Shown piece by piece: positions 16,950 through 57,397 of a stretch of 64,000 nt of DNA (its first letter is position 1; every line of letters starts with the position of its first letter). The notes under the pieces are model-generated. The model had not been told where the DNA came from, ran no database searches, and was given only the letters and a program-made list of their open reading frames with translations. The translations under genes were made by a program, and so were the position numbers. Origin of the DNA: Arenicola marina (Eukaryota; Annelida; Polychaeta; Arenicolidae); the NCBI GenBank assembly GCA_964019135.1, contig OZ025250.1:46159174-46223173 (forward strand), read 5' to 3'.

Positions 16950-17040
16950 TGAGCCAACGATGTCTGATGGCGTGTTAGACCGGGTTGCGCAGCCAGGACT
17001 AGCATGGACGACTCCCGTCGGGGTCTATATTACGTTCATA

Positions 17041-23511: not shown

Positions 23512-23577
23512 GCCCACTAGCGCAGTTGGTAAGACGTTTGTCTTTTGATCGCAAGGTTGTGCGTTCCCGACGAAGGC
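23512..23577 (+). repeat. tRNA-like sequence inside the P-like element, followed by T run
   Basis: TAGCGCAGTTGGTAAGACG is a good D arm/A box; GTCTTTTGATCGCAAGG resembles an anticodon arm with TTG (Gln-like) in the loop; GTGCGTTCCCGACG looks like a T arm lacking about four bases of the B box. A run of eight to nine T at 23586 could end pol III transcription. It is probably a decayed tRNA or SINE head rather than a working tRNA gene. Confidence 0.4.
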
Positions 23578-24060
23578 GAACACAGTTTTTTTTACCTTTA
23601 TTGGTCGGAAAACCTGCTATTTTCTCTGAACAAAGGTGGTCGTTCCCCCGGTTGTCACGATTTTAAAGGGATTATCGATCCTAATTTTTGATTCTTACTA
23701 AGTTTCGATCTAAGTTAGATCTAAAAGTCAGAGGACTAAAGTCAGAACACTCACATTATGTGACATGTCTGCCCCGCGGCTGTGAGTTCGTTTCACTGTT
23801 GACATTAGACTTGATAACTTTCAATAAGGAAACTAGAGGGGTAGAATGTGTGTTTTTGTCAATATTATGCAGGTAACTTAATTCTCGATCGATAAGTTAA
23901 CATGTTTTTTACGTGTTTTTCGCTCGTCTGGTACCAGCGCGTATCAGTTATCCGACTGGAATGTAGCATCCCCACCGCTAGGGCGGCGCCACAACTCGTT
24001 TGTAACATTTCGGCCACAGGCAGACGCGCGAGTTGGAGATCTTACTCTAGACAATCTTTG

Positions 24061-30011: not shown

Positions 30012-31916
30012 CTGTACAATGATTGTGTCCTCACTTTGATTATGGAGATGATACGACTTATTTATTACGTGAAATTCATTGCAATCTGTATTTAGTTTAG
30101 CTTAATGTGCAATGTGCAATCTCCGCAGACGCCTCGAGAAGGGAAGTCACCGCGATTTCGAGCAGTTTTTGCAAGTGACAAGCTCACATCCACAAGTTAG
30201 TGGCAGCCAGGCCCAAAGAGAAGTGGATTGCAGACATTTTGACAAATACCTTTTTTTATAGGAAATAGTCTAAATAATTATTATTTGAATTTGTTGATAT
30301 TGTATTATATAAGCCTAGTACATGTAGTCCGTTCTCACCCGTCAAACGTCGCCAACTTGGTTAATCGTAACAATTTTGCTGGCAAACAAATGTTGCAATT
30401 AAAGCGGAGTGCACCGTATACATGTATATGTGTTAAGGGTGTCTATATCCCAATTCGTATCTTTGATTCATAGAGGAAGTCAGCTACCATTGTACCCGGG
30501 GCCAAGGGCCCATTTCCGGGGTAGGTCGACACGCTCTGCTGTAAAAGGCTGGTGCCAATATTTTGTTTTTATGGAGTCCCTAAAACATGTCCAGGGGGCG
30601 ACCCCGTTGGGAAACCCACACAGATATTTTTAGAGAACTTTATATAGAAGTACCCATGTTGCGAAAAAAAAGTGAAAAATAAACACAAGAAAATGAGCGG
30701 TTTCGTTACAATTCTGTGTATTCCGTGCTTTTATCGCACAAATTTGTTGCAAGCACCGCTCTGAGCTTATTGCATTAGTGTTTAGACGCGTTTAGCCCAA
30801 AAATTACGACTTTGGGTTTATAATCATAAATATTTCTAAAACACCAAATTGCGTATGAGTCTTTTCGCCAGAAAATCAAGCGTACTGAACTTTCAATTCT
30901 TCTGATTCCAACAGTTAATGCGGCCTACAGCGACTTTCTTCTAATATCCTTCATCCAGGAGTCTGGCTTAGTGACAATCTTATTTCAAACTCAGTCTTTC
31001 GAAGAAAAGTTGTATCATCAAATGCAATGTGTTCGAGGAGAGGCACCCCATGCACATGTACTGTGCAAAAATCCATTGATTTCAAAATCTCTTTAGTCAC
31101 TGCATAGAACATTGTACAAATATGAAACCTATAGTATATATATTGTCAAACAACAACATGACTTTATCGTTGATTATTTATAAATCGTACATCTGCCCAC
31201 AAAATGACAAACATGTAAACTTATAGGCAAAGGCTTGCCATAACGTGTTAACCTGGCACAGACGACCAACCCCCAAACATGAAGCAGGGTGTTTTTACCC
31301 AGTTTACTATGGACACCATTGACAACATAAACTTTGGCTGGCTGCTGCTAACCCTGAAAGTTACGGATATGAAGAAAGGCGGTTACTCGATCGATGTAAA
31401 CCGATGAATTCCTGTCTAGCAATGAAGCTTGGTGTTTAAAATGGTCGCCAATAGGGGGCATGTCCTATAAATCACAGGTTCGGAGAGATGACATGTGTAC
31501 CCAATGTCTCTGTATGTAAAAAAAATTCTTCCAGCCTTTCACAGCCGAGCGTGTCCACCTATCCCTCCTCGGAACGGATACGACGGGTCTCAATCAGCTC
31601 CCAAAGGTATAAAAACATGAAATGCAGACCAGGTACCGGACGTCAACAAGCATGATTCCGTGTTTTCGCACAACTGAAAACATCAGATCAGAAAAACAAT
31701 ATTTGTTCCCCTGAGGAATCTCAAGGCTTTACGGCGTGGTGCCGCCTCCCCTGTGTGAATAACCTGAGAGGGCGGCCGGCCTATCTACGGGCCACAGAGA
31801 TCAGTTACTAAACAAAGGCTGCGATGATAGGTATGTTCTCCACAGATTTCCGCGGTAACTGTCGCCGCCAGCAATCCATCGGGCATCCATTTTATCCATG
31901 TAAAATGGCTAGCGCA
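30012..31916. other. no gene seen
   Basis: Unique AT-leaning sequence. Frames stay below 75 codons, and no RNA gene, TIR or tandem repeat was recognised. Confidence 0.5.
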
Positions 31917-34072
31917 CTACACCTCAGATCAATAGGTCCTGGGGGCCTCCCTGGTCTAATGGTTAGAGCACTGGACCGCAGATCAATAGGTCCTGGGGGC
32001 CTCCCTGGTCTAATGGTTAGAGCACTGGACCGCAGATCAATAGGTCCTGAGGGCCTCCCTGGTCTAATGGTTAGAGCTGGACCGCAGATAAATAGGTCCT
32101 GGGGGCATCCCTGTTGTAGTGGTTAGCGCCCTGGACCGCAGATCAATAGGTCCTGGGGGCTTCCCTGGTCTAATTGTTAGTGCACTAGACCGCAGATCCT
32201 TAGGTCTTGGGGGCCTCCCTGTTGTAGTGGTTAGCGCCCTGGACCGCAGATCCATAGGTCCTGGGGGCCTCCCTGGTCTAATGGTTAGTGCACTAGACCA
32301 CAGATCCTTAGGTCCTGGGGACCTCATTGGTGTAGTGGTTAGCGCAGTAGACCGCAGACCAATAGGTCCTTGGGGCCTCCCTGGTGTAGTGGTTAGCGCA
32401 GTAGACCGCAGACCAATATGTCCTGGGGGCCTCCCTGGTCTAGTGGTTAGAGCACTAGACCACAGATCAATAGATCCTGGGGGCCTCCCTGGTGTAGTGG
32501 TTAGCGCAGTAGAGAGCAGACCAACTGGTGCTGGGACCTCCCTGTTGTAGTGGTTAGCGCAGTAGACCGCAAACCAATAGGTCCTGGGGGCCTCCCTGGT
32601 CTAGTGGTTAGCGCACTAGACCACAGATCAATAGGTCCTGGGGGGCCTCCCTGGTGTAGTGGTTAGCGCAGTAGAGAGCAGACCAACTGGTGCTGGGACC
32701 TCCCTGTTGTAGTGGTTAGCGCAGTAGACCGCAAACCAATAGGTCCTGGGGGCCTCCCTGGTCTAGTGGTTAGCGCACTAGACCACAGATCAATAGGTCC
32801 TGGGGGGCCTCCCTGGTGTAGTGGTTAGCGCAGTAGACCGCAGACCAATAGGTCATGGGGGCGTCCCTGGTCTAGTGGTTAGCGCCACAGATCAATAGGT
32901 CCTGGGGGCCTCCCTGGTGTAGTGGTTAGCGCAGTAGAGCGCAGACCAACTGGTGCTGGGACCTCCCTGTTGTAGTGGTTAGCGCAGTAGACCGTAGACC
33001 AATAGGTCCTGGGGGCCTCCCTGGTGTAGTGGTTAGCGCACTAGACCACAGATCGATAGGTCCTGGGGGCATCCCTGGTGTAGTGGTTAGCGCAGTAGAC
33101 CACAGATCAATAGATCCTGGGGGCCTCCCTGGTGTAGTGGTTAGCGCAGTAGACCGCAGACCAATAGGTCCTGGGGGCCTCCCTGGTGTAGTGGTTAGCG
33201 CAGTAGACCGCAGACCAATAGGTCCTGGGGGCCTCCCTGGTCTAGTGGTTAGCGCACTAGACCACAGATCAATAGATCCTGGGGCCTCCCTGGTGTAGTG
33301 GTTAGCGCAGTAGAGCGCAGACCAACTGGTGCTGGGACCTCCCTGTTGTAGTGGTTAGCGCAGTAGACCGCAAAACCAATAGGTCCTGGGGGCCTCCCTG
33401 GTCTAGTGGTTAGCGCACTAGACCACAGATCAATAGATCCTGGGGGCCTCCCTGGTGTAGTGGTTAGCGCAGTAGAGCGCAGACCAACTGGTGCTGGGAC
33501 CTCCCTGTTGTAGTGGTTAGCGCAGTAGACCGCAAACCAATAGGTCCTGGGGGCCTCCCTGGTCTAGTGGTTAGCGCACTAGACCACAGATCAATAGGTC
33601 CTGGGGGGCCTCCCTGGTGTAGTGGTTAGCGCAGTAGGCCGCAGACCAATAGGTCCTGGGGGCCTCCCTGGTGTAGTGGTTAGCGCAGTAGACCGCAGAC
33701 CAATAGGTCCTGGGGGCCTCCCTGGTGTAGTGGTTAGCGCACTAGACCACAGATCAATAGGTCCTGGGGGCCTCCCTGGTGTAGTGGTTAGCGCAGTAGA
33801 CCGCAGACCAACTGGTGCTGGGACCTCCCTGGTGTAGTGGTTAGCGCGCTATACCGCAGACCAATAGGTCCTTGTGGCCCCCTGGTGTAGTGGTTAGCGC
33901 ACTAGACCACAGATCAATAGGTCATGGAGACCTCCCTGGTGTAGTGGTTAGCGCGCTATACCACAGATCAATAGGTCCTGGGGGCCTCCCTGGTGTAGTA
34001 GTTAGCGCACTAGACCGCAGATCAATAGATCTTGGGGGCCTCCCTGGTGTAGTGGTTAGAGCACTGGACCCC
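31917..34072 (+). repeat. 54-bp minisatellite made of tRNA-Cys-like 5' halves, about 40 copies
   Basis: Each unit contains TGGTCTAATGGTTAGAGCAC (pol III A box and D arm) followed by GGACCGCAGATCAATAGGTC, which resembles the tRNA-Cys anticodon arm (GCA) and variable region. A G-run joins units in place of the T arm/B box. Variants (TGGTGTAGTGGTTAGCGCA, GCAGACCAATAGG, CAACTGGTGCTGGGACC) recur in ordered blocks of several units. The 18-residue open frame (GGLPGVVVSALDHRSIGP) is a by-product of the 54-bp period. Confidence 0.9.
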
Positions 34073-35466
34073 AAACAAACCTACGTGTAAAAAATGCTTG
34101 TTCCTCACAGCCCCTCGTGTATCAAGACTGTCGGTATCTCTTATTTATAACTTCAGCGTGATGTCTTAAATAATTAAATTACAGCCCTTCTTAAGTCAAT
34201 TTCCTGAGTGAATATTTTTTGTTTTCCCCAGGAAAGTTCCGTCCTAACGTAGGGATTATAGGTTCCGATACCCGGGAACATAGACTGGGGCCTGGCTCAC
34301 TTGTAACAGCTACGTCCCATGATGAGTACCCAGGGTGTCGCAAAAGTGACCATTTACGACAGCGAAGCACGTGGTTCTTCTTATGTGGGAAAAAGTGAGC
34401 ACAGGGGTTATGGTTAGACACGTTACTATGAACTGGGGCAAGAAACGACGGTTGGTCCCCCCTCTCTTCCATTATACTCAAGCCCAATGATTATAAGACA
34501 GATCGACTGTTACCACATGAGGTGGTAGCAAGTTAGGCTCCATTTTCAATATCAAAATTAATTTTCATACATATATATCTATATCTACATATTTCACCAT
34601 TAATATTTTAATTCATGATAATTAAGCTTGAGAAAATATTGGTGTTAAATTGCTATGACAATATGTGGATCACTTATTGCTAATTTGGGAACTTCTAACA
34701 GAGGCATTTACTGACACGCTCACTTTTTAAATCTTTGTCGTAGTAAATCCGAACCGAGAAAATATTATTTCAACCATGTCTTCCACAGAAGCGTAAAACA
34801 ATTCTCTATATATTTTTGTATATTTAGCCTCCACTTTACGCAAACAAACCTTCTCGCAGCTTTAAGTTTAAACATTAAACGTGCGGCGCGTCGAGATTTA
34901 GGCCTATGGATGTGGTTTGTCTTATTTTCCTTAAACTTGTGTACATCATGTATGAACTGTTCTGGCGCCTACAGTACTGAAATCGTCTACATTGAATCCT
35001 GAATCCATAGAAGACTTAATTAAATTGTTATCTGGTGATGTAATGCGCTGACAGCCCATTAAGCACAAGCACTCCTGGTGGCTCAAAGGCAACATTAGTT
35101 GGCGGGGTAGTTGGTTTACCCTCTGTAGGTCATATCGCGGCAATGGAAAGGGTCAAGGCAGAGAGGAGCCATAACCCCCCTACTCTTTGCGAAGAAAGGC
35201 ATGGAATCTTTATCCTGCAGAAACATTTGCACAGGTGGGATTCATACCGCACACCGGCCACTTCAGCTGTGACCACAACTCTGTATTTTTGCTATATTTT
35301 TGATTATATCAATTCGGCTAACCAAAGCTTCTTCGGTGTTTAGCTTCACTGATTTCTCTTCAGCACGAGATCATAATATATCGTGTCTTGTATCAACTTC
35401 GGTTTCGTGCGCCACAACTGTTACCCATAGCTTGGTAATCCACAACAGTACGGAGTCCATTCACCC
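34073..35466. other. no gene seen
   Basis: AT-rich unique sequence; frames up to 98 codons lack domain or splice support. Confidence 0.45.
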
Positions 35467-35743
35467 AAGGCCCTTTAGCTCATTGGGTTAGAGCGCTCGC
35501 CTTGAGTGCTCTGGCAACCTGAGAGCCTAATTGCAAGTGGATATAATATTTCGAGCCCCGCGGTGGCCATGCCTGGTTAGTCACAGGGTAAAGATACCAT
35601 GTCTTTCTTCGCAACGAGTCAGGGGTTATCCCCTGGGACATGGCTCCAGTCCGCCCCCCCCCCCCCCTTCGCCCATTGACGCGATATGACTAAAAGTGGT
35701 TAAAGCGTCCTGAATATAAAACAAATCGACCAACCATTCAACA
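35467..35743 (+). mobile_element. tRNA-derived SINE
   Basis: The head 35469-35568 is tRNA-like: GGCC...GGCC acceptor ends, TAGCTCATTGGGTTAGAGC as D arm/A box, and TTCGAGCCCCGC as T arm/B box with an eroded 5' T stem and a long middle insert. A body follows, with a C-run (about 35645-35668) and GTGGTTAAAGCGTCCTGAAT near the end. The head sequence AAGGCCCTTTAGC reappears at 35744-35756, right after the body, as if a second copy began there. Confidence 0.6.
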
Positions 35744-35783
35744 AAGGCCCTTTAGCAATTGAAAATTGCCCCAAGCTTAGTTT

Positions 35784-35873
35784 TCATGAAATCGGACATT
35801 GTAAAGACCCATAAAACCGCATTGGTATCATGACATGCCGTTTTATGGGTCTTTACAATGTCCGATTTCATGA
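35784..35873. repeat. perfect 34-bp-arm hairpin whose loop matches the giant array monomer
   Basis: Arms 35784-35817 and 35840-35873 are exact reverse complements. The arm end plus loop (35814-35836) reads AAACCGCATTGGTATCATGA then CA, differing by one missing C from the core of the 44-bp monomer that fills 36169-57275. No coding content. Confidence 0.95.
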
Positions 35874-36168
35874 TAATTGTCAACGATATTTGTTCTCCGT
35901 CCTAGAACCTTGATGGTCCAATCTGCAGCTTATTGAGCCAGTAGGAATCCCCTCTCACCAACTATTCATCTGTGCACCCGCCACCCACCACCCACCCCCC
36001 ACTGCCCACGCGACCCCCACTTCAGACAAGTCCTGCCTAATGCCTATAACCAGCGCCACTTGCAAGGGTTAACTTGTTCCAGGATTCCACATAGCTGATT
36101 GCCTTCGTTGTCTTCGTTCGAGACAGATCAGAACCCGCGGGTCTTGTTACTTACTACGCCGTCGATGT
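35874..36168. other. spacer between hairpin and giant array
   Basis: Unique sequence with a CCACCCACC-type C-rich patch near 35980-36010. No gene. Confidence 0.5.
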
Positions 36169-39100
36169 ACCCAGGGAGGAAGACAAACCGCCGTTGGTAT
36201 CATGACAACAGAGACCAGGGAGGAAGACAAACCGCCATTGGTATCATGACAACAGAGACCAGGGAGGAAGATAAACCGCCATTGGTATCATGACAACAGA
36301 AACCACGGAGGTGGACAAACCGCCATTGGTATCATGACAACAGAGACCAGGGAGGAAGACAAACCGCCATTGGTATCATGACAACAGAAACCACGGAGGT
36401 GGACAAACCGCCATTGGTATCATGACAACAGAGACCAGGGAGGTGGACAAACCGCCATTGGTATCATGACAACAGAGACCAGGAAGGAAGACAAACCGCC
36501 AGTGGTATCATGACAACAGAGACCAGGGAGGAAAACAAACCGCCATTGGTATTATGTCAACAGAGACCAGGAAGGAAGACAAACCGCCAGTGGTATCATG
36601 ACAACATAGACCAGGGAGGTGGACAAACCGCCATTGGTATCATGACAACAGAGACCAGGGAGGAAGACAAACCGCCAATGGTATCATGACAACAGAGACC
36701 AGGGAGGAAGACAAACCGCCATTGGTATCATGACAACATAGACCAGGAAGGAAGACAAACCGCCATTGGTATCATGACAACAGAGACCAGGGAGGAAGAC
36801 AAACCGCCATTGGTATCATGACAACATAGACCAGGGAGGAAGACAAACCACCATTGGTATCAGGACAACATAGACCAGGAAGGAAGACAAACCGCCATTG
36901 GTGTCATGACAACATAGACCAGGGAGGAAGACAAACCGCCATTGGTAGCATGACAACAGAGTCCAGGGAGGTGGACAAACCGCCATTGGTATCATGACAA
37001 CAGAGACCAGGGAGGAAGCAAACCGACATTGGTATCAAGATAACAGAGACCAGGGAGGAAGACAAACCGCCATTGGTATCATGACAACAGAGACCAGAGA
37101 GGAAGATAAACCGCCATTGGTATCATGACAACAGAGACCAGGGAGGAAGACAAACCGCCATTGGTATCATGACAACAGAGACCAGGGAGGTGGACAAACC
37201 GCCATTGGTATCATGACAACAGAGACCAGGGAGGAAGACAAACCGCCATGGGTATCATGACAACAGAGACCAGGGAGGAAGACAAACCGCCATTGGTATC
37301 AAGACAACAGAGACCAGGGAGGAAGACAAACCGCCATTGGCATCATGACAACAGAGACCAGGGAGGTGGACAAACCGCCATTGGTATCATGACAACAGAG
37401 ACCAGGGAGGAAGACAAACCGCCATTGGTATCATGACAACAGAGACCAGGGAGGAAGACAAACCGCCATTGGTATCATGACAACAGAGTCCAGGGAGGTG
37501 GACAAACCGCCATTGGTAGCATGACAACAGAGACCAGGGAGGAAGACAAACCGCCAATCGTGTCATGACAACAGAGACCAGGGAGAAAGACAAACCGCCA
37601 TTGGTATCATGACAACAGAAACCAGGGAGGAAGACAAACCGCCGTTGGTATCATGACAACAGAGACCAAGGAGGAAGACAAACCGCCATTGATATCATGT
37701 CAACAGAGAACGGGGAGGTGGACAAACCGCCATTGGTATCATGACAACAGAGACCAGGGAGGAAGACAAACCGCCATTGGTATCATGACAACAGAGACCA
37801 GGGAGAAAGACAAACCGCCATTGGTATCATGACAACAGAGACCAGGGAGGAAGACAAACCGCCATTGGTATCATGACAACAGAGACCAGGGAGGAAGACA
37901 AACCGCCATTGGTATCATGACAACAGAGACCAGGGAGAAAGACAAACCGCCATTGGTATCATGACAACAGAGACCAGGGAGGAAGACAAACCGCCATTGG
38001 TATCAGGACAACATAGACCAGGAAGGAAGACAAACCGCCATTGGTATCATGACAACATAGACCAGGGAGGTGGACAAACCGCCATTGGTATCATGACAAC
38101 AGAGACGAGGGAGGAAGATAAACCGCCATTGGTATCATGACAACAGAGACCAGGGAGAAAGACAAAAAGCCATTGGTATCATGACAACATAGACCAGGAA
38201 GGAAGACATACCACCATTGGTATCAGGACAACATAGACCAGGAAGGAAGACAAACCGCCATTGGTATCATGACAACAGAGACCAGGGAGGAAGACAAACC
38301 GCCATTGGTATCATGACAACAGAGACCAGGGAGGAAGACAAACCGCCATTGGTATCATGACAACAGAGACCAGGGAGGAAGACAAACCGCCATTGGTATC
38401 ATGACAACATAGACCAGGAAGGAAGACAAACCGCCATTGGTATCATGACAACAGAGACCAGGGAGGAAGACAAACCGCCATTGGTATCATGACAACAGAG
38501 ACCAGGGAGGAAGACAAACCGCCATTGGTATCATGACAACAGAGACCAGGGAGGAAGACAAACCGCCATTGGTATCATGACAACATAGACCAGGAAGGAA
38601 GACAAACCGCCATTGGTATCATGACAACAGACACCAGGGAGGAAGACAAACCGCCATTGGTATCATGACAACAGAGACCAGGGAAGAAGACAAACCGCCA
38701 TTGGTATCATGACAACAGACACCAGGGAGGATAACAAACCGCCATTGGTATCATGACAATATAGACCAGGAAGGAAGACAAACCGCCATTGGTATCATGG
38801 CAACATAGACCAGGGAAGAAGACAAACCGCCCTTGGTATCATGACAACAGAGACCAGGGAGGAAGACAAACCGCCATTGGTATCATGACAACAGAGACCA
38901 GGGAGGAAGACAAACCGCCATTGGTATCATGACAACAGAGACCAGGGAGGAAGACAAACCGCCATTGGTATCATGACAACAGAGACCAGGGAGGAAGACA
39001 AACCGCCATTGGTATCATGACAACATAGACCAGGAAGGAAGACAAACCGCCATTGGTATCATGACAACAGAGACCAGGGAGGAAGACAAACCGCCATTGG

Positions 39101-42100
39101 TATCATGACAACAGAGACCAGGGAAGAAGACAAACCGCCATTGGTATCATGACAACAGAGACCAGAGAGGAAGACAAACCGCCATTGGTATCATGACAAC
39201 AGAGACCAGGGAGGAAGACAAACCGCCATTGGTATCATGACAACAGAGACCAGTGAGGAAGACAAACCGCCATTGGTATCATGACAACAGAGACCAGGGA
39301 GGAAGACAAACCGCCATTGGTCTCATGACAACAGAGACCAGAGAGGAAGACAAACCGCCATTGGTATCATGACAACAGAGACCAGGGAGGAAGACAAACC
39401 GCCATTGGTATCATGACAACAGAGACCAAGGAGGAAGACAAACCGCCATTGGTATCATGACAACAGAGACCAGGGAGGAAGACAAACCGCCATTGGTCTC
39501 ATGACAACAGAGACCAGAGAGGAAGACAAACCGCCATTGGTATCATGACAACAGAGACCAGTGAGGAAGACAAACCGCCATTGGTATCATGACAACAGAG
39601 ACCAGGGAGGAAGACAAACCGCCATTGGTATCATGACAACAGAGACCAGGGAGGAAGACAAACCGCCATTGGTATCATGACAACAGAGACCAGGGAGGAA
39701 GACAAACCGCCATTGGTATCATGACAACATAGACCAGGAAGGAAGACATACCACCATTGGTATCAGGACAACATAGACCAGGAAGGAAGACAAACCGCCA
39801 TTGGTATCATGACAACATAGAGCAGGAAGGAAGACCTACCGCCATTGGTATCATGACAACAGAGACCAGGGAGGAAGACAAAACGCCATTGGTATCATGA
39901 CAACAGACACCAGGGAGGAAAACAAACCGCCATTGGTATCATGACAATATAGACCAGGAAGGAAGACAAACCGCCATTGGTATCATGACAACAGACACCA
40001 GGGAGGAAAACAAACCGCCATTGGTATCATGACAATATAGACCAGGAAGGAAGACAAACCGCCATTGGTATCATGGCAACATAGACCAGGGAAGAAGACA
40101 AACCGCCCTTGGTATCATGACAACAGAGACCAGGGAGGAAGACAAACCGCCATTGGTATCATGACAACAGAGACCAGGGAGGAAGACAAACCGCCATTGG
40201 TATCATGACAACAGAGACCAGGGAGGAAGACAAACCGCCTTTGGTATCATGACAACATAGGCCAGGAAGGAAGACATACCACCATTGGTATCAGGACAAC
40301 ATAGACCAGGAAGGAAGACAAACCGCCATTGGTATCATGACAACAGAGACCAGGGAGGAAGACAAACCGCCATTGGTATCATGACAACAGAGACCAGGGA
40401 GGAAGACAAACCGCCATTGGTATCATGACAACAGAGACCAGGGAGGAAGACAAACCGCCATTGGTATCATGACAACATAGACCAGGAAGGAAGACAAACC
40501 GCCATTGGTATCATGACAACAGAGACCAGGGAGGAAGACAAACCGCCATTGGTATCATGACAACAGAGACCAGGGAAGAAGACAAACCGCCATTGGTATC
40601 ATGACAACAGAGACCAGAGAGGAAGACAAACCGCCATTGGTATCATGACAACAGAGACCAGGGAGGAAGACAAACCGCCATTGGTATCATGACAACAGAG
40701 ACCAGTGAGGAAGACAAACCGCCATTGGTATCATGACAACAGAGACCAGGGAGGAAGACAAACCGCCATTGGTCTCATGACAACAGAGACCAGAGAGGAA
40801 GACAAACCGCCATTGGTATCATGACAACAGAGACCAGGGAGGAAGACAAACCGCCATTGGTATCATGACAACAGAGACCAAGGAGGAAGACAAACCGCCA
40901 TTGGTATCATGACAACAGAGACCAGGGAGGAAGACAAACCGCCATTGGTCTCATGACAACAGAGACCAGAGAGGAAGACAAACCGCCATTGGTATCATGA
41001 CAACAGAGACCAGTGAGGAAGACAAACCGCCATTGGTATCATGACAACAGAGACCAGGGAGGAAGACAAACCGCCATTGGTATCATGACAACAGAGACCA
41101 GAGAGGAAGACAAACCGCCATTGGGCTCATGACAACAGAGACCAGAGAGGAAGACAAACCGCCATTGGTATCATGACAACAGAGACCAGAGAGGAAGACA
41201 AACCGCCATTGGTATCATGACAACAGAGACCAGGGAGGAAGACAAACCGCCATTGGTATCATGACAACAGAGACCAGAGAGGAAGACAAACCGCCATTGG
41301 TATCATGACAACAGAGACCAGAGAGGAAGACAAACCGCCATTGGTATCATGACAACAGAGACCAGGGAGGAAGACAAACCGCCATTGGTATCATGACAAC
41401 AGAGACCAGGGAGGAAGACAAACCGCCATTGGTATCATGACAACAGAGACCAGAGAGGAAGACAAACCGCCATTGGTATCATGACAACAGAGACCAGGGA
41501 GGAAGACAAACCGCCATTGGTATCATGACAACAGAGACCAGGGAGGAAGACAAACCGCCATTGGTATCATGACAACAGAGACCAGAGAGGAAGACAAACC
41601 GCCATTGGTATCATGACAACATAGACCAGGGAGGAAGACAAACCGCCATTGGTATCATGACAACATAGACCAGGGAGGAAGACAAACCGCCATTGGTATC
41701 ATGACAACAGAGACCAGAGAGGAAGACAAACCGCCATTGGTATCATGACAACAGAGACCAGGGAGGAAGACAAACCGCCATTGGTATCATGACAACAGAG
41801 ACCAGAGAGGAAGACAAACCGCCATTGGTATCATGACAACAGAGACCAGAGAGGAAGACAAACCGCCATTGGTATCATGACAACATAGACCAGGGAGGAA
41901 GACAAACTGCCATTGGTATCATGACAACAGAGACCAGGGAGGAAGACAAACCGCCATTGGTATCATGACAACAGAGACCAGGGAGGAAGACAAACCGCCA
42001 TTGGTATCATGACAACAGAGACCAGGGAGGAAGACAAACCGCCATTGGTATCATGACAACAGAGACCAGAGAGGAAGACAAACCGCCATTGGTATCATGA

Positions 42101-45100
42101 CAACATAGACCAGGGAGGAAGACAAACCGCCATTGGTATCATGACAACAGAGACCAGAGAGGAAGACAAACCGCCATTGGGCTCATGACAACATAGACCA
42201 GAGAGGAAGACAAACCGCCATTGGTATCATGACAACAGAGACCAGGGAGGAAGACAAACCGCCATTGGTATCATGACAACAGAGACCAGAGAGGAAGACA
42301 AACCGCCATTGGTATCATGACAACAGAGACCAGGGAGGAAGACAAACCGCCATTGGTATCATGACAACAGAGACCAGGGAGGAAGACAAACCGCCATTGG
42401 TATCATGACAACAGAGACCAGAGAGGAAGACAAACCGCCATTGGTATCATGACAACAGAGACCAGGGAGGAAGACAAACCGCCATTGGTATCATGACAAC
42501 AGAGACCAGGGAGGAAGACAAACCGCCATTGGTATCATGACAACAGAGACCAGAGAGGAAGACAAACCGCCATTGGTATCATGACAACAGAGACCAGGGA
42601 GGAAGACAAACCGCCATTGGTATCATGACAACAGAGACCAGAGAGGAAGACAAACCGCCATTGGTATCATGACAACAGAGACCAGGGAGGAAGACAAACC
42701 GCCATTGGTATCATGACAACAGAGACCAGAGAGGAAGACAAACCGCCATTGGTATCATGACAACATAGACCAGGGAGGAAGACAAACCGCCATTGGTATC
42801 ATGACAACATAGAACAGAGAGGAAGACAAACCGCCATTGGTATCATGACAACATAGACCAGGGAGGAAGACAAACCGAGATTGGTATCATGACAACATAG
42901 ACCAGGGAGGAAGACAAACCGCCATTTGTGTCATGACAACAGAGACCAGGGAGGAAGACAAACCGCCATTGGTATCATGACAACAGAGACCAGGGAGGAA
43001 GACAAACCGCCATTGGTATCATGACAACAGAGACCAGAGAGGAAGACAAACCGCCATTGGTATCATGACAACAGAGACCAGAGAGGAAGACAAACCGCCA
43101 TTGGTATCATGACAACAGAGACCAGAGAGGAAGACAAACCGCCATTGGTATCATGACAACAGAGACCAGAGAGGAAGACAAACCGCCATTGGTATCATGA
43201 CAACATAGACCAGGGAGGAAGACAAACCGCCATTGGTATCATGACAACATAGACCAGAGAGGAAGACAAACCGCCATTGGTATCATGACAACATAGACCA
43301 GGGAGGAAGACAAACCGCCATTGGTATCATGACAACAGAGACCAGAGAGGAAGACAAACCGCCATTGGTATCATGACAACAGAGACCAGAGAGGAAGACA
43401 AACCGCCATTGGTATCATGACAACAGAGACCAGAGAGGAAGACAAACCGCCATTGGTATCATGACAACAGAGACCAGAGAGGAAGACAAACCGCCATTGG
43501 TATCATGACAACATAGACCAGGGAGGAAGACAAACCGCCATTGGTATCATGACAACAGAGACCAGAGAGGAAGACAAACCGCCATTGGTATCATGACAAC
43601 AGAGACCAGGGAGGAAGACAAACCGCCATTGGTATCATGACAACAGAGACCAGGGACGAAGACAAACCGCCATTGGTATCATGACAACAGAGACCAGAGA
43701 GGAAGACAAACCGCCATTGGTATCATGACAACAGAGACCAGAGAGGAAGACAAACCGCCATTGGTATCATGACAACAGAGACCAGGGAGGAAGACAAACC
43801 GCCATTGGTATCATGACAACAGAGACCAGGGAGGAAGACAAACCGCCATTGGTATCATGACAACAGAGACCAGAGAGGAAGACAAACCGCCATTGGTATC
43901 ATGACAACAGAGACCAGGGAGGAAGACAAACCGCCATTGGTATCATGACAACAGAGACCAGGGAGGAAGACAAACCGCCATTGGTATCATGACAACAGAG
44001 ACCAGAGAGGAAGACAAACCGCCATTGGTATCATGACAACAGAGACCAGAGAGGAAGACAAACCGCCATTGGTATCATGACAACAGAGACCAGAGAGGAA
44101 GACAAACCGCCATTGGTATCATGACAACAGAGACCAGGGAGGAAGACAAACCGCCATTGGTATCATGACAACAGAGACCAGAGAGGAAGACAAACCGCCA
44201 TTGGTATCATGACAACAGAGACCAGGGAGGAAGACAAACCGCCATTGGTATCATGACAACAGAGACCAGAGAGGAAGACAAACCGCCATTGGTATCATGA
44301 CAACAGAGACCAGGGAGGAAGACAAACCGCCATTGGTATCATGACAACAGAGACCAGAGAGGAAGACAAACCGCCATTGGTATCATGACAACATAGACCA
44401 GGGAGGAAGACAAACCGCCATTGGTATCATGACAACATAGACCAGAGAGGAAGACAAACCGCCATTGGGCTCATGACAACAGAGACCAGAGAGGAAGACA
44501 AACCGCCATTGGTATCATGACAACAGAGACCAGGGAGGAAGACAAACCGCCATTGGTATCATGACAACAGAGACCAGAGAGGAAGACAAACCGCCATTGG
44601 TATCATGACAACAGAGACCAGAGAGGAAGACAAACCGCCATTGGTATCATGACAACAGAGACCAGAGAGGAAGACAAACCGCCATTGGTATCATGACAAC
44701 AGAGACCAGAGAGGAAGACAAACCGCCATTGGTATCATGACAACATAGACCAGGGAGGAAGACAAACCGCCATTGGTATCATGACAACATAGACCAGAGA
44801 GGAAGACAAACCGCCATTGTTATCATGACAACATAGACCAGGGAGGAAGACAAACCGCCATTGGTATCATGACAACATAGACCAGGGAGGAAGACAAACC
44901 GCCATTGGTATCATGACAACAGAGACCAGGGAGGAAGACAAACCGCCATTGGTATCATGACAACAGAGACCAGAGAGGAAGACAAACCGCCATTGGTGTC
45001 ATGACAACAGAGACCAGAGAGGAAGACAAACCGCCATTGGTATCATGACAACAGAGACCAGGGAGGAAGACAAACCGCCATTGGTATCATGACAACAGAG

Positions 45101-48100
45101 ACCAGAGAGGAAGACAAACCGCCATTGGTATCATGACAACAGAGACCAGAGAGGAAGACAAACCGCCATTGGTATCATGACAACAGAGACCAGAGAGGAA
45201 GACAAACCGCCATTGGTATCATGACAACATAGACCAGGGAGGAAGACAAACCGCCATTGGTATCATGACAACATAGACCAGAGAGGAAGACAAACCGCCA
45301 TTGGTATCATGACAACATAGACCAGAGAGGAAGACAAACCGAGATTGGTATCATGACAACATAGACCAGGGAGGAAGACAAACCGCCATTGGTGTCATGA
45401 CAACAGAGACCAGGGAGGAAGACAAACCGCCATTGGTATCATGACAACAGAGACCAGGGAGGAAGACAAACCGCCATTGGTATCATGACAACAGAGACCA
45501 GAGAGGAAGACAAACCGCCATTGGTATCATGACAACAGAGACCAGGGAGGAAGACAAACCGCCATTGGTATCATGACAACAGAGACCAGGGAAGAAGACA
45601 AACCGCCATTGGTATCATGACAACAGAGACCAGAGAGGAAGACAAACCGCCATTGGTATCATGACAACAGAGACCAGGGAGGAAGACAAACCGCCATTGG
45701 TATCATGACAACAGAGACCAGTGAGGAAGACAAACCGCCATTGGTATCATGACAACAGAGACCAGGGAGGAAGACAAACCGCCATTGGTCTCATGACAAC
45801 ATAGACCAGGGAGGAAGACAAACCGCCATTGGTATCATGACAACATAGAACAGAGAGGAAGACAAACCGCCATTGGTATCATGACAACATAGACCAGGGA
45901 GGAAGACAAACCGAGATTGGTATCATGACAACATAGACCAGGGAGGAAGACAAACCGCCATTTGTGTCATGACAACAGAGACCAGGGAGGAAGACAAACC
46001 GCCATTGGTATCATGACAACAGAGACCAGGGAGGAAGACAAACCGCCATTGGTATCATGACAACAGAGACCAGAGAGGAAGACAAACCGCCATTGGTATC
46101 ATGACAACAGAGACCAGAGAGGAAGACAAACCGCCATTGGTGTCATGACAACAGAGACCAGAGAGGAAGACAAACCGCCATTGGTATCATGACAACAGAG
46201 ACCAGAGAGGAAGACAAACCGCCATTGGTATCATGACAACATAGACCAGGGAGGAAGACAAACCGCCATTGGTATCATGACAACATAGACCAGAGAGGAA
46301 GACAAACCGCCATTGGTATCATGACAACATAGACCAGGGAGGAAGACAAACCGCCATTGGTATCATGACAACAGAGACCAGAGAGGAAGACAAACCGCCA
46401 TTGGTATCATGACAACAGAGACCAGAGAGGAAGACAAACCGCCATTGGTATCATGACAACAGAGACCAGAGAGGAAGACAAACCGCCATTGGTATCATGA
46501 CAACAGAGACCAGAGAGGAAGACAAACCGCCATTGGTATCATGACAACATAGACCAGGGAGGAAGACAAACCGCCATTGGTATCATGACAACAGAGACCA
46601 GAGAGGAAGACAAACCGCCATTGGTATCATGACAACAGAGACCAGGGAGGAAGACAAACCGCCATTGGTATCATGACAACAGAGACCAGGGAGGAAGACA
46701 AACCGCCATTGGTATCATGACAACAGAGACCAGAGAGGAAGACAAACCGCCATTGGTATCATGACAACAGAGACCAGAGAGGAAGACAAACCGCCATTGG
46801 TATCATGACAACAGAGACCAGGGAGGAAGACAAACCGCCATTGGTATCATGACAACAGAGACCAGGGAGGAAGACAAACCGCCATTGGTATCATGACAAC
46901 AGAGACCAGAGAGGAAGACAAACCGCCATTGGTATCATGACAACAGAGACCAGGGAGGAAGACAAACCGCCATTGGTATCATGACAACAGAGACCAGGGA
47001 GGAAGACAAACCGCCATTGGTATCATGACAACAGAGACCAGAGAGGAAGACAAACCGCCATTGGTATCATGACAACAGAGACCAGAGAGGAAGACAAACC
47101 GCCATTGGTATCATGACAACAGAGACCAGAGAGGAAGACAAACCGCCATTGGTATCATGACAACAGAGACCAGGGAGGAAGACAAACCGCCATTGGTATC
47201 ATGACAACAGAGACCAGAGAGGAAGACAAACCGCCATCGGTATCATGACAACAGAGACCAGGGAGGAAGACAAACCGCCATTGGTATCATGACAACAGAG
47301 ACCAGAGAGGAAGACAAACCGCCATTGGTATCATGACAACAGAGACCAGGGAGGAAGACAAACCGCCATTGGTATCATGACAACAGAGACCAGAGAGGAA
47401 GACAAACCGCCATTGGTATCATGACAACATAGACCAGGGAGGAAGACAAACCGCCATTGGTATCATGACAACATAGACCAGAGAGGAAGACAAACCGCCA
47501 TTGGGCTCATGACAACAGAGACCAGAGAGGAAGACAAACCGCCATTGGTATCATGACAACAGAGACCAGGGAGGAAGACAAACCGCCATTGGTATCATGA
47601 CAACAGAGACCAGAGAGGAAGACAAACCGCCATTGGTATCATGACAACAGAGACCAGAGAGGAAGACAAACCGCCATTGGTATCATGACAACAGAGACCA
47701 GAGAGGAAGACAAACCGCCATTGGTATCATGACAACAGAGACCAGAGAGGAAGACAAACCGCCATTGGTATCATGACAACATAGACCAGGGAGGAAGACA
47801 AACCGCCATTGGTATCATGACAACATAGACCAGAGAGGAAGACAAACCGCCATTGTTATCATGACAACATAGACCAGGGAGGAAGACAAACCGCCATTGG
47901 TATCATGACAACATAGACCAGGGAGGAAGACAAACCGCCATTGGTATCATGACAACAGAGACCAGGGAGGAAGACAAACCGCCATTGGTATCATGACAAC
48001 AGAGACCAGAGAGGAAGACAAACCGCCATTGGTGTCATGACAACAGAGACCAGAGAGGAAGACAAACCGCCATTGGTATCATGACAACAGAGACCAGGGA

Positions 48101-51100
48101 GGAAGACAAACCGCCATTGGTATCATGACAACAGAGACCAGAGAGGAAGACAAACCGCCATTGGTATCATGACAACAGAGACCAGAGAGGAAGACAAACC
48201 GCCATTGGTATCATGACAACAGAGACCAGAGAGGAAGACAAACCGCCATTGGTATCATGACAACATAGACCAGGGAGGAAGACAAACCGCCATTGGTATC
48301 ATGACAACATAGACCAGAGAGGAAGACAAACCGCCATTGGTATCATGACAACATAGACCAGAGAGGAAGACAAACCGAGATTGGTATCATGACAACATAG
48401 ACCAGGGAGGAAGACAAACCGCCATTGGTGTCATGACAACAGAGACCAGGGAGGAAGACAAACCGCCATTGGTATCATGACAACAGAGACCAGGGAGGAA
48501 GACAAACCGCCATTGGTATCATGACAACAGAGACCAGAGAGGAAGACAAACCGCCATTGGTATCATGACAACAGAGACCAGGGAGGAAGACAAACCGCCA
48601 TTGGTATCATGACAACAGAGACCAGGGAAGAAGACAAACCGCCATTGGTATCATGACAACAGAGACCAGAGAGGAAGACAAACCGCCATTGGTATCATGA
48701 CAACAGAGACCAGGGAGGAAGACAAACCGCCATTGGTATCATGACAACAGAGACCAGTGAGGAAGACAAACCGCCATTGGTATCATGACAACAGAGACCA
48801 GGGAGGAAGACAAACCGCCATTGGTCTCATGACAACAGAGACCAGAGAGGAAGACAAACCGCCATTGGTATCATGACAACAGAGACCAGGGAGGAAGACA
48901 AACCGCCATTGGTATCATGACAACAGAGACCAAGGAGGAAGACAAACCGCCATTGGTATCATGACAACAGAGACCAGGGAGGAAGACAAACCGCCATTGG
49001 TCTCATGACAACAGAGACCAGAGAGGAAGACAAACCGCCATTGGTATCATGACAACAGAGACCAGTGAGGAAGACAAACCGCCATTGGTATCATGACAAC
49101 AGAGACCAGGGAGGAAGACAAACCGCCATTGGTATCATGACAACAGAGACCAGGGAGGAAGACAAACCGCCATTGGTATCATGACAACAGAGACCAGGGA
49201 GGAAGACAAACCGCCATTGGTATCATGACAACATAGACCAGGAAGGAAGACATACCACCATTGGTATCAGGACAACATAGACCAGGAAGGAAGACAAACC
49301 GCCATTGGTATCATGACAACATAGAGCAGGAAGGAAGACCTACCGCCATTGGTATCATGACAACAGAGACCAGGGAGGAAGACAAACCGCCATTGGTATC
49401 ATGACAACAGACACCAGGGAGGAAAACAAACCGCCATTGGTATCATGACAATATAGACCAGGAAGGAAGACAAACCGCCATTGGTATCATGACAACAGAC
49501 ACCAGGGAGGAAAACAAACCGCCATTGGTATCATGACAATATAGACCAGGAAGGAAGACAAACCGCCATTGGTATCATGGCAACATAGACCAGGGAAGAA
49601 GACAAACCGCCCTTGGTATCATGACAACAGAGACCAGGGAGGAAGACAAACCGCCATTGGTATCATGACAACAGAGACCAGGGAGGAAGACAAACCGCCA
49701 TTGGTATCATGACAACAGAGACCAGGGAGGAAGACAAACCGCCTTTGGTATCATGACAACATAGGCCAGGAAGGAAGACATACCGCCATTGGTATCATGA
49801 CAACAGAGACCAGGGAGGAAGACAAACCGCCATTGGTATCATGACAACAGAGACCAGGGAGGAAAACAAACCGCCATTGGTATCATGACAACAGAGACCA
49901 AGGAGGAAGACAAACCGCCATTGGTATCATGACAACAGAGACCAGGAAGGAAGACATACCGCCATTGGTATCATGACAACAGAGACCAGGGAGGAAGACA
50001 AACCGCCTTTGGTATCATGACAACATAGGCCAGGAAGGAAGACATACCACCATTGGTATCAGGACAACATAGACCAGGAAGGAAGACAAACCGCCATTGG
50101 TATCATGACAACAGAGACCAGGGAGGAAGACAAACCGCCATTGGTATCATGACAACAGAGACCAGGGAAGAAGACAAACCGCCATTGGTATCATGACAAC
50201 AGAGACCAGGGAGGAAGACAAACCGCCATTGGTATCATGACAACATAGACCAGGAAGGAAGACAAACCGCCATTGGTATCATGACAACAGAGACCAGGGA
50301 GGAAGACAAACCGCCATTGGTATCATGACAACAGAGACCAGGGAAGAAGACAAACCGCCATTGGTATCATGACAACAGAGACCAGAGAGGAAGACAAACC
50401 GCCATTGGTATCATGACAACAGAGACCAGGGAGGAAGACAAACCGCCATTGGTATCATGACAACAGAGACCAGTGAGGAAGACAAACCGCCATTGGTATC
50501 ATGACAACAGAGACCAGGGAGGAAGACAAACCGCCATTGGTCTCATGACAACAGAGACCAGAGAGGAAGACAAACCGCCATTGGTATCATGACAACAGAG
50601 ACCAGGGAGGAAGACAAACCGCCATTGGTATCATGACAACAGAGACCAAGGAGGAAGACAAACCGCCATTGGTATCATGACAACAGAGACCAGGGAGGAA
50701 GACAAACCGCCATTGGTCTCATGACAACAGAGACCAGAGAGGAAGACAAACCGCCATTGGTATCATGACAACAGAGACCAGTGAGGAAGACAAACCGCCA
50801 TTGGTATCATGACAACAGAGACCAGGGAGGAAGACAAACCGCCATTGGTATCATGACAACAGAGACCAGAGAGGAAGACAAACCGCCATTGGGCTCATGA
50901 CAACAGAGACCAGAGAGGAAGACAAACCGCCATTGGTATCATGACAACAGAGACCAGAGAGGAAGACAAACCGCCATTGGTATCATGACAACAGAGACCA
51001 GGGAGGAAGACAAACCGCCATTGGTATCATGACAACAGAGACCAGAGAGGAAGACAAACCGCCATTGGTATCATGACAACATAGACCAGGGAGGAAGACA

Positions 51101-54100
51101 AACCGCCATTGGTATCATGACAACATAGACCAGGGAGGAAGACAAACCGCCATTGGTATCATGACAACAGAGACCAGAGAGGAAGACAAACCGCCATTGG
51201 TATCATGACAACAGAGACCAGGGAGGAAGACAAACCGCCATTGGTATCATGACAACAGAGACCAGAGAGGAAGACAAACCGCCATTGGTATCATGACAAC
51301 AGAGACCAGAGAGGAAGACAAACCGCCATTGGTATCATGACAACATAGACCAGGGAGGAAGACAAACCGCCATTGGTGTCATGACAACAGAGACCAGGGA
51401 GGAAGACAAACCGCCATTGGTATCATGACAACAGAGACCAGGGAGGAAGACAAACCGCCATTGGTATCATGACAACAGAGACCAGGGAGGAAGACAAACC
51501 GCCATTGGTATCATGACAACAGAGACCAGAGAGGAAGACAAACCGCCATTGGTATCATGACAACATAGACCAGGGAGGAAGACAAACCGCCATTGGTATC
51601 ATGACAACAGAGACCAGAGAGGAAGACAAACCGCCATTGGGCTCATGACAACAGAGACCAGAGAGGAAGACAAACCGCCATTGGTATCATGACAACAGAG
51701 ACCAGGGAGGAAGACAAACCGCCATTGGTATCATGACAACAGAGACCAGAGAGGAAGACAAACCGCCATTGGTATCATGACAACAGAGACCAGGGAGGAA
51801 GACAAACCGCCATTGGTATCATGACAACAGAGACCAGGGAGGAAGACAAACCGCCATTGGTATCATGACAACAGAGACCAGAGAGGAAGACAAACCGCCA
51901 TTGGTATCATGACAACAGAGACCAGGGAGGAAGACAAACCGCCATTGGTATCATGACAACAGAGACCAGGGAGGAAGACAAACCGCCATTGGTATCATGA
52001 CAACAGAGACCAGAGAGGAAGACAAACCGCCATTGGTATCATGACAACAGAGACCAGGGAGGAAGACAAACCGCCATTGGTATCATGACAACAGAGACCA
52101 GAGAGGAAGACAAACCGCCATTGGTATCATGACAACAGAGACCAGGGAGGAAGACAAACCGCCATTGGTATCATGACAACAGAGACCAGAGAGGAAGACA
52201 AACCGCCATTGGTATCATGACAACATAGACCAGGGAGGAAGACAAACCGCCATTGGTATCATGACAACAGAGACCAGAGAGGAAGACAAACCGCCATTGG
52301 TATCATGACAACAGAGACCAGGGAGGAAGACAAACCGCCATTGGTATCATGACAACAGAGACCAGGGAGGAAGACAAACCGCCATTGGTATCATGACAAC
52401 AGAGACCAGAGAGGAAGACAAACCGCCATTGGTATCATGACAACAGAGACCAGAGAGGAAGACAAACCGCCATTGGTATCATGACAACAGAGACCAGGGA
52501 GGAAGACAAACCGCCATTGGTATCATGACAACAGAGACCAGGGAGGAAGACAAACCGCCATTGGTATCATGACAACAGAGACCAGAGAGGAAGACAAACC
52601 GCCATTGGTATCATGACAACAGAGACCAGGGAGGAAGACAAACCGCCATTGGTATCATGACAACAGAGACCAGGGAGGAAGACAAACCGCCATTGGTATC
52701 ATGACAACAGAGACCAGGGAGGAAGACAAACCGCCATTGGTATCATGACAACAGAGACCAGAGAGGAAGACAAACCGCCATTGGTATCATGACAACATAG
52801 ACCAGGGAGGAAGACAAACCGCCATTGGTATCATGACAACATAGACCAGGGAGGAAGACAAACCGCCATTGGTATCATGACAACAGAGACCAGAGAGGAA
52901 GACAAACCGCCATTGGTATCATGACAACAGAGACCAGGGAGGAAGACAAACCGCCATTGGTATCATGACAACAGAGACCAGAGAGGAAGACAAACCGCCA
53001 TTGGTATCATGACAACAGAGACCAGAGAGGAAGACAAACCGCCATTGGTATCATGACAACATAGACCAGGGAGGAAGACAAACCGCCATTGGTATCATGA
53101 CAACAGAGACCAGGGAGGAAGACAAACCGCCATTGGTATCATGACAACAGAGACCAGGGAGGAAGACAAACCGCCATTGGTATCATGACAACAGAGACCA
53201 GGGAGGAAGACAAACCGCCATTGGTATCATGACAACAGAGACCAGAGAGGAAGACAAACCGCCATTGGTATCATGACAACATAGACCAGGGAGGAAGACA
53301 AACCGCCATTGGTATCATGACAACAGAGACCAGAGAGGAAGACAAACCGCCATTGGGCTCATGACAACATAGACCAGAGAGGAAGACAAACCGCCATTGG
53401 TATCATGACAACAGAGACCAGGGAGGAAGACAAACCGCCATTGGTATCATGACAACAGAGACCAGAGAGGAAGACAAACCGCCATTGGTATCATGACAAC
53501 AGAGACCAGGGAGGAAGACAAACCGCCATTGGTATCATGACAACAGAGACCAGGGAGGAAGACAAACCGCCATTGGTATCATGACAACAGAGACCAGAGA
53601 GGAAGACAAACCGCCATTGGTATCATGACAACAGAGACCAGGGAGGAAGACAAACCGCCATTGGTATCATGACAACAGAGACCAGGGAGGAAGACAAACC
53701 GCCACTGGTATCATGACAACAGAGACCAGAGAGGAAGACAAACCGCCATTGGTATCATGACAACAGAGACCAGGGAGGAAGACAAACCGCCATTGGTATC
53801 ATGACAACAGAGACCAGAGAGGAAGACAAACCGCCAATGGTATCATGACAACAGAGACCAGGGAGGAAGACAAACCGCCATTGGTATCATGACAACAGAG
53901 ACCAGAGAGGAAGACAAACCGCCATTGGTATCATGACAACATAGACCAGGGAGGAAGACAAACCGCCATTGGTATCATGACAACATAGAACAGAGAGGAA
54001 GACAAACCGCCATTGGTATCATGACAACATAGACCAGGGAGGAAGACAAACCGAGATTGGTATCATGACAACATAGACCAGGGAGGAAGACAAACCGCCA

Positions 54101-57100
54101 TTTGTGTCATGACAACAGAGACCAGGGAGGAAGACAAACCGCCATTGGTATCATGACAACAGAGACCAGGGAGGAAGACAAACCGCCATTGGTATCATGA
54201 CAACAGAGACCAGAGAGGAAGACAAACCGCCATTGGTATCATGACAACAGAGACCAGAGAGGAAGACAAACCGCCATTGGTATCATGACAACAGAGACCA
54301 GAGAGGAAGACAAACCGCCATTGGTATCATGACAACAGAGACCAGAGAGGAAGACAAACCGCCATTGGTATCATGACAACATAGACCAGGGAGGAAGACA
54401 AACCGCCATTGGTATCATGACAACATAGACCAGAGAGGAAGACAAACCGCCATTGGTATCATGACAACATAGACCAGGGAGGAAGACAAACCGCCATTGG
54501 TATCATGACAACAGAGACCAGAGAGGAAGACAAACCGCCATTGGTATCATGACAACAGAGACCAGAGAGGAAGACAAACCGCCATTGGTATCATGACAAC
54601 AGAGACCAGAGAGGAAGACAAACCGCCATTGGTATCATGACAACAGAGACCAGAGAGGAAGACAAACCGCCATTGGTATCATGACAACATAGACCAGGGA
54701 GGAAGACAAACCGCCATTGGTATCATGACAACAGAGACCAGAGAGGAAGACAAACCGCCATTGGTATCATGACAACAGAGACCAGGGAGGAAGACAAACC
54801 GCCATTGGTATCATGACAACAGAGACCAGGGAGGAAGACAAACCGCCATTGGTATCATGACAACAGAGACCAGAGAGGAAGACAAACCGCCATTGGTATC
54901 ATGACAACAGAGACCAGAGAGGAAGACAAACCGCCATTGGTATCATGACAACAGAGACCAGGGAGGAAGACAAACCGCCATTGGTATCATGACAACAGAG
55001 ACCAGGGAGGAAGACAAACCGCCATTGGTATCATGACAACAGAGACCAGAGAGGAAGACAAACCGCCATTGGTATCATGACAACAGAGACCAGGGAGGAA
55101 GACAAACCGCCATTGGTATCATGACAACAGAGACCAGGGAGGAAGACAAACCGCCATTGGTATCATGACAACAGAGACCAGAGAGGAAGACAAACCGCCA
55201 TTGGTATCATGACAACAGAGACCAGAGAGGAAGACAAACCGCCATTGGTATCATGACAACAGAGACCAGAGAGGAAGACAAACCGCCATTGGTATCATGA
55301 CAACAGAGACCAGGGAGGAAGACAAACCGCCATTGGTATCATGACAACAGAGACCAGAGAGGAAGACAAACCGCCATTGGTATCATGACAACAGAGACCA
55401 GGGAGGAAGACAAACCGCCATTGGTATCATGACAACAGAGACCAGAGAGGAAGACAAACCGCCATTGGTATCATGACAACAGAGACCAGGGAGGAAGACA
55501 AACCGCCATTGGTATCATGACAACAGAGACCAGAGAGGAAGACAAACCGCCATTGGTATCATGACAACATAGACCAGGGAGGAAGACAAACCGCCATTGG
55601 TATCATGACAACATAGACCAGAGAGGAAGACAAACCGCCATTGGGCTCATGACAACAGAGACCAGAGAGGAAGACAAACCGCCATTGGTATCATGACAAC
55701 AGAGACCAGGGAGGAAGACAAACCGCCATTGGTATCATGACAACAGAGACCAGAGAGGAAGACAAACCGCCATTGGTATCATGACAACAGAGACCAGAGA
55801 GGAAGACAAACCGCCATTGGTATCATGACAACAGAGACCAGAGAGGAAGACAAACCGCCATTGGTATCATGACAACAGAGACCAGAGAGGAAGACAAACC
55901 GCCATTGGTATCATGACAACATAGACCAGGGAGGAAGACAAACCGCCATTGGTATCATGACAACATAGACCAGAGAGGAAGACAAACCGCCATTGTTATC
56001 ATGACAACATAGACCAGGGAGGAAGACAAACCGCCATTGGTATCATGACAACATAGACCAGGGAGGAAGACAAACCGCCATTGGTATCATGACAACAGAG
56101 ACCAGGGAGGAAGACAAACCGCCATTGGTATCATGACAACAGAGACCAGAGAGGAAGACAAACCGCCATTGGTGTCATGACAACAGAGACCAGAGAGGAA
56201 GACAAACCGCCATTGGTATCATGACAACAGAGACCAGGGAGGAAGACAAACCGCCATTGGTATCATGACAACAGAGACCAGAGAGGAAGACAAACCGCCA
56301 TTGGTATCATGACAACAGAGACCAGAGAGGAAGACAAACCGCCATTGGTATCATGACAACAGAGACCAGAGAGGAAGACAAACCGCCATTGGTATCATGA
56401 CAACATAGACCAGGGAGGAGGACAAACCGCCATTGGTATCATGACAACATAGACCAGAGAGGAAGACAAACCGCCATTGGTATCATGACAACATAGACCA
56501 GAGAGAAAGACAAACCGAGATTGGTATCATGACAACATAGACCAGGGAGGAAGACAAACCGCCATTGGTGTCATGACAACAGAGACCAGGGAGGAAGACA
56601 AACCGCCATTGGTATCATGACAACAGAGACCAGGGAGGAAGACAAACCGCCATTGGTATCATGACAACAGAGACCAGAGAGGAAGACAAACCGCCATTGG
56701 TATCATGACAACAGAGACCAGAGAGGAAGACAAACCGCCATTGGTATCATGACAACAGAGACCAGAGAGGAAGACAAACCGCCATTGGTATCATGACAAC
56801 ATAGACCAGGGAGGAAGACAAACCGCCATTGGTATCATGACAACATAGACCAGAGAGGAAGACAAACCGCCATTGGTATCATGACAACATAGACCAGGGA
56901 GGAAGACAAACCGCCATTGGTATCATGACAACAGAGACCAGGGAGGAAGACAAACCGCCATTGGTATCATGACAACAGAGACCAGGGAGGAAGACAAACC
57001 GCCATTGGTATCATGACAACAGAGACCAGAGAGGAAGACAAACCGCCATTGGTATCATGACAACAGAGACCAGAGAGGAAGACAAACCGCCATTGGTATC

Positions 57101-57275
57101 ATGACAACATAGACCAGGGAGGAAGACAAACCGCCATTGGTATCATGACAACAGAGACCAGAGAGGAAGACAAACCGCCATTGGTATCATGACAACATAG
57201 ACCAGGGAGGAAGACAAACCGCCATTGGTATCATGACAACATAGACCAGGGAGGAAGACAAACCGCCGTTGGTAT
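36169..57275. repeat. 21.1-kb satellite array, 44-bp monomer, about 480 copies
   Basis: The monomer runs ACCAGGGAGGAAGACAAACC then GCCATTGGTATCATGACAAC and AGAG. Main variants are GGGAGG/GAGAGG, ACAGAG/ACATAG, TTGGTA/TTGGGC, GAGGAA/GGTGGA and GGAAGG. Rare variants recur at exact multiples of 44 bp (1276, 3036, 8140, 9504, 9768), showing nested higher-order duplications. The first 500 bp has most divergence, as expected at an array edge; the last unit shares a GCCGTTGG variant with the first. Not coding. Confidence 0.99.
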
Positions 57276-57397
57276 TGACATATATGCCACACTTTCCTTC
57301 TGGTTATTGCAAGCCCATACAGATACCGAGCGCGTGGTCAGCCTGGCTGTGATTGGACGCTGTTGGGGCGAAGCCAGGGCAGTTCACTGAAGGTCCG

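Follow-up and report, generated by a model that had tools for sequence, protein, structure and literature searches.

A foldback hairpin with perfect arms lies beside a large 44-bp tandem array and holds, in its arm end and loop, one half of the array unit. We read this hairpin as the scar of one complex template-switch and foldback repair event, in the course of which half an array unit was captured, and assign this reading a probability of roughly 0.58. It is based on five observations: the perfect arms, the inverted microhomology inside them, the half-unit match, the uniqueness of that match in the window (the whole 64-kb stretch of DNA that was analysed) and its coincidence with the hairpin. 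The hairpin is a real feature that did not arise by chance. Its kind is ordinary: a repair scar is the most likely reading, and there is a slight possibility that it is a relic of how the array began.

A perfect hairpin with half an array unit in its arm end and loop

The two arms match as exact reverse complements over 34 of 34 positions and are separated by a spacer of 22 nt (Table 1), in agreement with the initial annotation. When the repeat is extended inward and outward across two mismatches it reaches 42 nt at 95% identity, leaving 12 nt between the arms, and a GCAT/ATGC inverted microhomology with a C/C mismatch beside it then lies inside the arms at the base of the loop. DNA folding of positions 35775-35882 gave -41.1 kcal/mol against a shuffle mean of -9 (z = -13.66), a value equalled by 0 of 200 shuffles. 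Outside the arrays, the hairpin is the longest perfect short-spacer inverted repeat in the window, and it accounts for 0.28% of the ~31.7 kb of non-array bases. The gap between hairpin and array, in which a short C-rich stretch can be seen by eye, measures 297 bp; the closeness described earlier therefore stands, and its figure of 295 bp does not. The hairpin arm and the array core were also scanned against viral and prokaryote collections and, as expected, found no match.

The terminal AAAC of the left arm begins a match to the core of the 44-bp monomer, and the loop continues it. As had been proposed, arm end and loop together read as the monomer core minus one base, with 22 of 23 core bases present and one C deleted. 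In the 42-nt version of the hairpin, the arms contribute ten of the 22 matched bases (the mismatched C among them) and the loop contributes 12. The local score of this orphan, 39, compares with a null mean of 24.4 and a maximum of 32, so that none of 60 Markov sequences of the non-array length was as good, and the observed score against the monomer was not reached once when the hairpin itself was resampled 2000 times under a Markov model. These controls contradict the idea, which the initial annotation had raised against its own proposal, that the loop resembles the monomer no better than chance; hairpin and array are genuinely linked.

The next best matches to the core outside the array, on either strand, are 6 edits away, leaving a single orphan core in the ~31.7 kb of non-array sequence in the window, and it sits on the hairpin. 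Because this sole orphan coincides with the longest perfect short-spacer inverted repeat, hairpin and orphan were probably formed in one event. For the remaining 21 bp of the unit, no sequence outside the array in the window matches better than expected by chance (20 of 60 null sequences were as good), with scores of just 11 and 12 within positions 35600-36165.

Table 1. Coordinates of the hairpin, the 44-bp array and related features in the window
Feature	Position	Strand	Remarks
Left arm of perfect inverted repeat, 34 bp	35784..35817	+	Exact reverse complement of 35840-35873
Spacer, 22 nt, CGCATTGGTATCATGACATGCC	35818..35839	+	Inner GCAT/ATGC pairing possible, giving a 12-nt loop
Right arm, 34 bp	35840..35873	+	Putative snap-back copy of the left arm; direction of copying inferred
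Orphan half-monomer AAACCG-CATTGGTATCATGACA	35814..35835	+	22/23 array-core bases, one C missing; local score 39
Direct copy of 35457-35479, 23 bp	35734..35756	+	21/23 identical; local score 36; 27 bases before left arm
44-bp tandem array, ~480 units	36171..57280	+	TRF and wrap-around alignment
First full array unit	36185..36228	+	Rare G at position 9
Last partial array unit	57260..57280	+	Rare G at position 9; 2-bp deletion
Four foldbacks	667-727, 3257-3289, 17040-17129, 35784-35873		Perfect arms of at least 14 bp, spacer of at most 100

A template-switch repair event as the proposed origin

Those features of foldback and template-switch synthesis that a single sequence can show are present, namely a perfect inverted repeat with a short spacer, an inverted microhomology and a donor array 297 bp away. 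In the proposed event, an end left by a break or a stall, with ...CATAAAAC as its last bases, would anneal via AAAC to an array unit and copy ~18 nt of it (CGC-ATTGGTATCATGACA), dropping one C. Snapping back through ATGC/GCAT, the released end would then use 34 bp on its left as a template, giving rise to the right arm, and joining of this product to the other end would follow at ...TCATGA/TAATTG. As the donor of the loop sequence, the array would have existed beforehand, rather than having been born from the hairpin. We infer the order of these steps, the direction from array to hairpin and the enzymes involved from the arrangement of the sequence. Of the two origins that the initial annotation had left side by side, capture of a monomer by a hairpin is the one towards which we lean, with capture taking place while the hairpin formed, and the hairpin as seed of the satellite is the less likely one. 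The repair reading suggests how arrays may shed half-unit orphans into their flanks through repair accidents, and it cautions against taking a monomer fragment found in a nearby hairpin for the ancestor of the array.

A second short copy lies just left of the hairpin, at 35734-35756, and its source at 35457-35479 is 277 bp upstream. None of 500 Markov sequences gave as good a match, whether compared with the 1.6 kb upstream or with the near stretch alone, in a test made after the copy had first been seen by eye. This copy suggests that the spot collects short local copies, which fits repair with short local templates; it may also be older than the hairpin event or unrelated to it. By eye, the source at 35457-35479 belongs to a tRNA-like-looking stretch, in which ARAGORN calls no tRNA; neither tRNA nor Rfam matches were found in the window.

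The proposed event has counterparts in several known systems, as far as the available portions of the cited papers describe them. Foldback insertions at yeast breaks range from 2 to about 150 bp, the majority being shorter than 14 bp, and repetitive DNA is a frequent source of the templated insertions seen in rad27 mutants (PMC11724301). The hairpin resembles these foldback and templated insertions in being a short perfect inverted duplication that would be primed by inverted microhomology, and in the combination of pieces that is seen in complex events; its 34-bp arm lies at the upper end of the range given for most of them, ~5-34 bp (PMC11724301). In contrast to the yeast insertions, which were observed directly in repair products, the event proposed here is read from one sequence (PMC11724301). 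Pol theta is described as carrying out stem-loop synthesis in vitro from 2 terminal base pairs (PMC11292364), and the hairpin shares with theta-mediated end joining a snap-back from few terminal base pairs that yields inverted repeats (PMC11292364). The 34-bp arm slightly exceeds the usual upper length of POLQ insertions, about 30 nt in the portion of the source at hand (PMC11724301), and the enzyme in the present case is only conjectural. Template switching, in turn, is described as creating perfect stems and as a route to the birth of hairpin genes (PMC8794818). Our hairpin likewise would have acquired its perfect stem in a single event; unlike the template-switch hairpins, which are supported by phylogeny, it is known from one sequence, and its loop also holds a piece of the neighbouring array (PMC8794818).

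Growth of the array and polarity of the loop variants

TRF delimits the array at 36171 to 57275, with 479.7 copies of 44 bp, and wrap-around alignment places its right end at 57280. Its most diverged tracts are 36185-40583, on the hairpin side, and 49384-50263, and the internal one of the two contains part of a copy of the hairpin-side tract. A substructure of the monomer of 22+22, with GACAA at the half period, appeared possible by eye and was judged too weak. Several blocks of units are duplicated within the array: 92 units at 41464-45511 recur at 52640-56687 (distance 11.2 kb, 86/92 identical), 68 units at 42784-45775 recur at 45820-48811 (3.0 kb, 65/68 identical), 28 units at 39044-40275 recur at 48548-49779 (9.5 kb, 27/28 identical), and a 20-unit block is repeated at a distance of 9.8 kb with all 20 units identical. 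The detected duplications measure 0.9-4 kb each and all start at 39044 or later, about 3.2 kb or more past the hairpin. They mark where recent growth of the array happened and do not indicate its birthplace.

The loop form AAACCGCATTGG is present in 0 array units, compared with 436 occurrences of AAACCGCCATTGG. At position 9 of the unit, A is found in 471 of 480 units and G, C and T in 3 each. The G units are the first full unit, one unit at 37636 and the last unit, and the chance under random placement that two of three G units lie at the array ends is 2.6e-5 in a post hoc test. The loop has A at this position and both terminal units have G. Array ends tend to escape homogenisation and both end units carry G, which suggests that G is probably ancestral at position 9 and A derived. 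This polarity rests on one site, at which a parallel change is plausible because the G form is a CpG.

These data bear most directly on the reading in which the hairpin segment is the source and the array arose there by slippage or amplification, which we consider unlikely. It draws on the position of the orphan core, 297 bp from the array and on the side with the long tract of diverged, older-looking units, and on TGCC, which follows TGACA in the loop and recurs at the right junction of the array, TGACATATATGCC. This echo is weak: its chance by hand estimate is ~5%, and a standard alignment favours an interior array unit (17 vs 9). Against a birth of the satellite from the hairpin, as the initial annotation had suggested, stand the fact that the hairpin contains just 22 of the unit's 44 bases, the other 21 bp being at chance outside the array, and the absence from every array unit of the form with the deletion. 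The G of the terminal units also differs from the A of the loop, and the two flanks of the array, the left including the hairpin, share nothing above chance (direct comparison 24 against a null mean of 24.2, inverted comparison 24 against 24.4). The detected block duplications are interior, although they concern growth and not birth. Furthermore, the arms have no mismatch where the pairwise divergence of the left tract, 6.3%, predicts 2.15 in 34 (P of none 0.12); arm identity is weak evidence of age, given that arms can correct each other. Should the hairpin nevertheless prove to be the source, the birth of a satellite would have left a rare fossil here.

The other foldbacks and arrays of the window were compared in the same respect. 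Outside arrays, the window holds four inverted repeats with perfect arms of at least 14 bp and spacers of at most 100, as against none in 40 simulations. The foldback at 17040-17129 was tried as a second case of a hairpin related to an array and rejected: against the neighbouring 44-bp monomer (17629, 500 bp on), 493 and 480 of 500 resamplings were as good. Since this foldback is unlike the unit adjacent to it, and spacers of just 1 and 3 nt separate the arms of those at 667-727 and 3257-3289, foldbacks in this window do not generally carry or start arrays. Seven other arrays were tested for orphans, the AT-rich array at 1487-1587 being masked and left out; the best orphan of each lies outside the foldbacks, which also argues against the hairpin as source, and five of these orphans are at chance. 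For the 13-bp array, a C-rich orphan match lies at 15777-15817 (equalled by 0 of 60 null sequences), and the 54-bp array (31906-34070) resembles 21443-21464 (score 29, 3 of 60 as good), both outside the listed foldbacks. By eye, the stretch at 21443-21464 resembles a tRNA, a hint that the 54-bp array may derive from a SINE. The foldback at 667-727, which looks recent, is a perfect palindrome of 30 bp whose spacer is 1 nt.

Descent from a shared ancestor, or a donor at the right end, would predict the TGCC echo, which, weak as it is, is the main reason to keep a common ancestor under consideration alongside the hairpin as source. Under the former, hairpin and array each keep a fragment of an older dispersed repeat and neither is the source of the other, which would account for a half-unit match whose neighbours differ on both sides. 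We regard this as distinctly unlikely: the rest of the window contains no further copy of the core or the arm, and the position of the fragment exactly on a foldback, 297 bp from the array, would have to be a coincidence. It is tempting to speculate that the hairpin preserves pre-array sequence, with core and TGCC as the single-copy progenitor and foldback instability as the start of tandem amplification; we hold this to be decidedly improbable.

Mobile elements and chance resemblance

A repair scar is also to be preferred over a mobile element of the MITE type in which a piece of the monomer is carried or was captured; we think this very unlikely. Long perfect terminal inverted repeats would suit such an element, and AATTG occurs on both sides of the hairpin, although unevenly, at 35757-35761 and 35764-35768 on the left and at 35875-35879 on the right. 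Other inverted-repeat elements exist in the window, one of them with a target duplication: the element at 22980-24060 has perfect terminal inverted repeats of 37 bp and is flanked by a perfect 7-bp duplication, ATACCCA. In contrast, the ~14 bases next to the hairpin arms contain no flanking direct repeats of 4-6 bases. There is no second copy of the arm in the 64-kb window, where the next best match has 11 edits in 34, and at 90-96 bp the element would consist almost entirely of arm.

A related comparison concerns HINE/Helentron elements with satellite-like arrays, in which, in the part of the source available, an array lies between flanks able to hold a palindrome (PMC7492417). The present locus has this arrangement as well, and the C-rich stretch between hairpin and array is a further likeness by eye; unlike in those elements, the hairpin lies in the left flank and is far longer, and it has no second copy in the window (PMC7492417). 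For a right-flank 3' palindrome of the HINE type, 57281-57480 was covered for inverted repeats of 16 nt or more and yielded none, and a search for subterminal inverted repeats of that type (11-12 bp) between 35600-36170 and 57281-57480 gave a longest exact match of 8 bp, with 129 of 200 shuffles reaching at least 8. Other stretches of the flanks, compared by local alignment, were likewise at chance.

A chance resemblance of the loop to the monomer, in favour of which the short length of the match (23 columns) can be cited, is refuted, as far as Markov nulls go, since none of the 60 Markov sequences and none of the 2000 resampled hairpins reaches its score; its probability is negligible.

Other features of the window

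An ORF at 62043-63998, running off the window end, is weakly similar to the ankyrin part of TRPV channels among PDB sequences (best E 0.0016) and gave no match against Pfam. The CpG ratio of the window is 0.85. On the minus strand, 4842-7406 holds an 854-aa C2H2 zinc-finger frame, in which an internal short peptide repeat corresponds to the 30-bp tandem array at 6371-6999.
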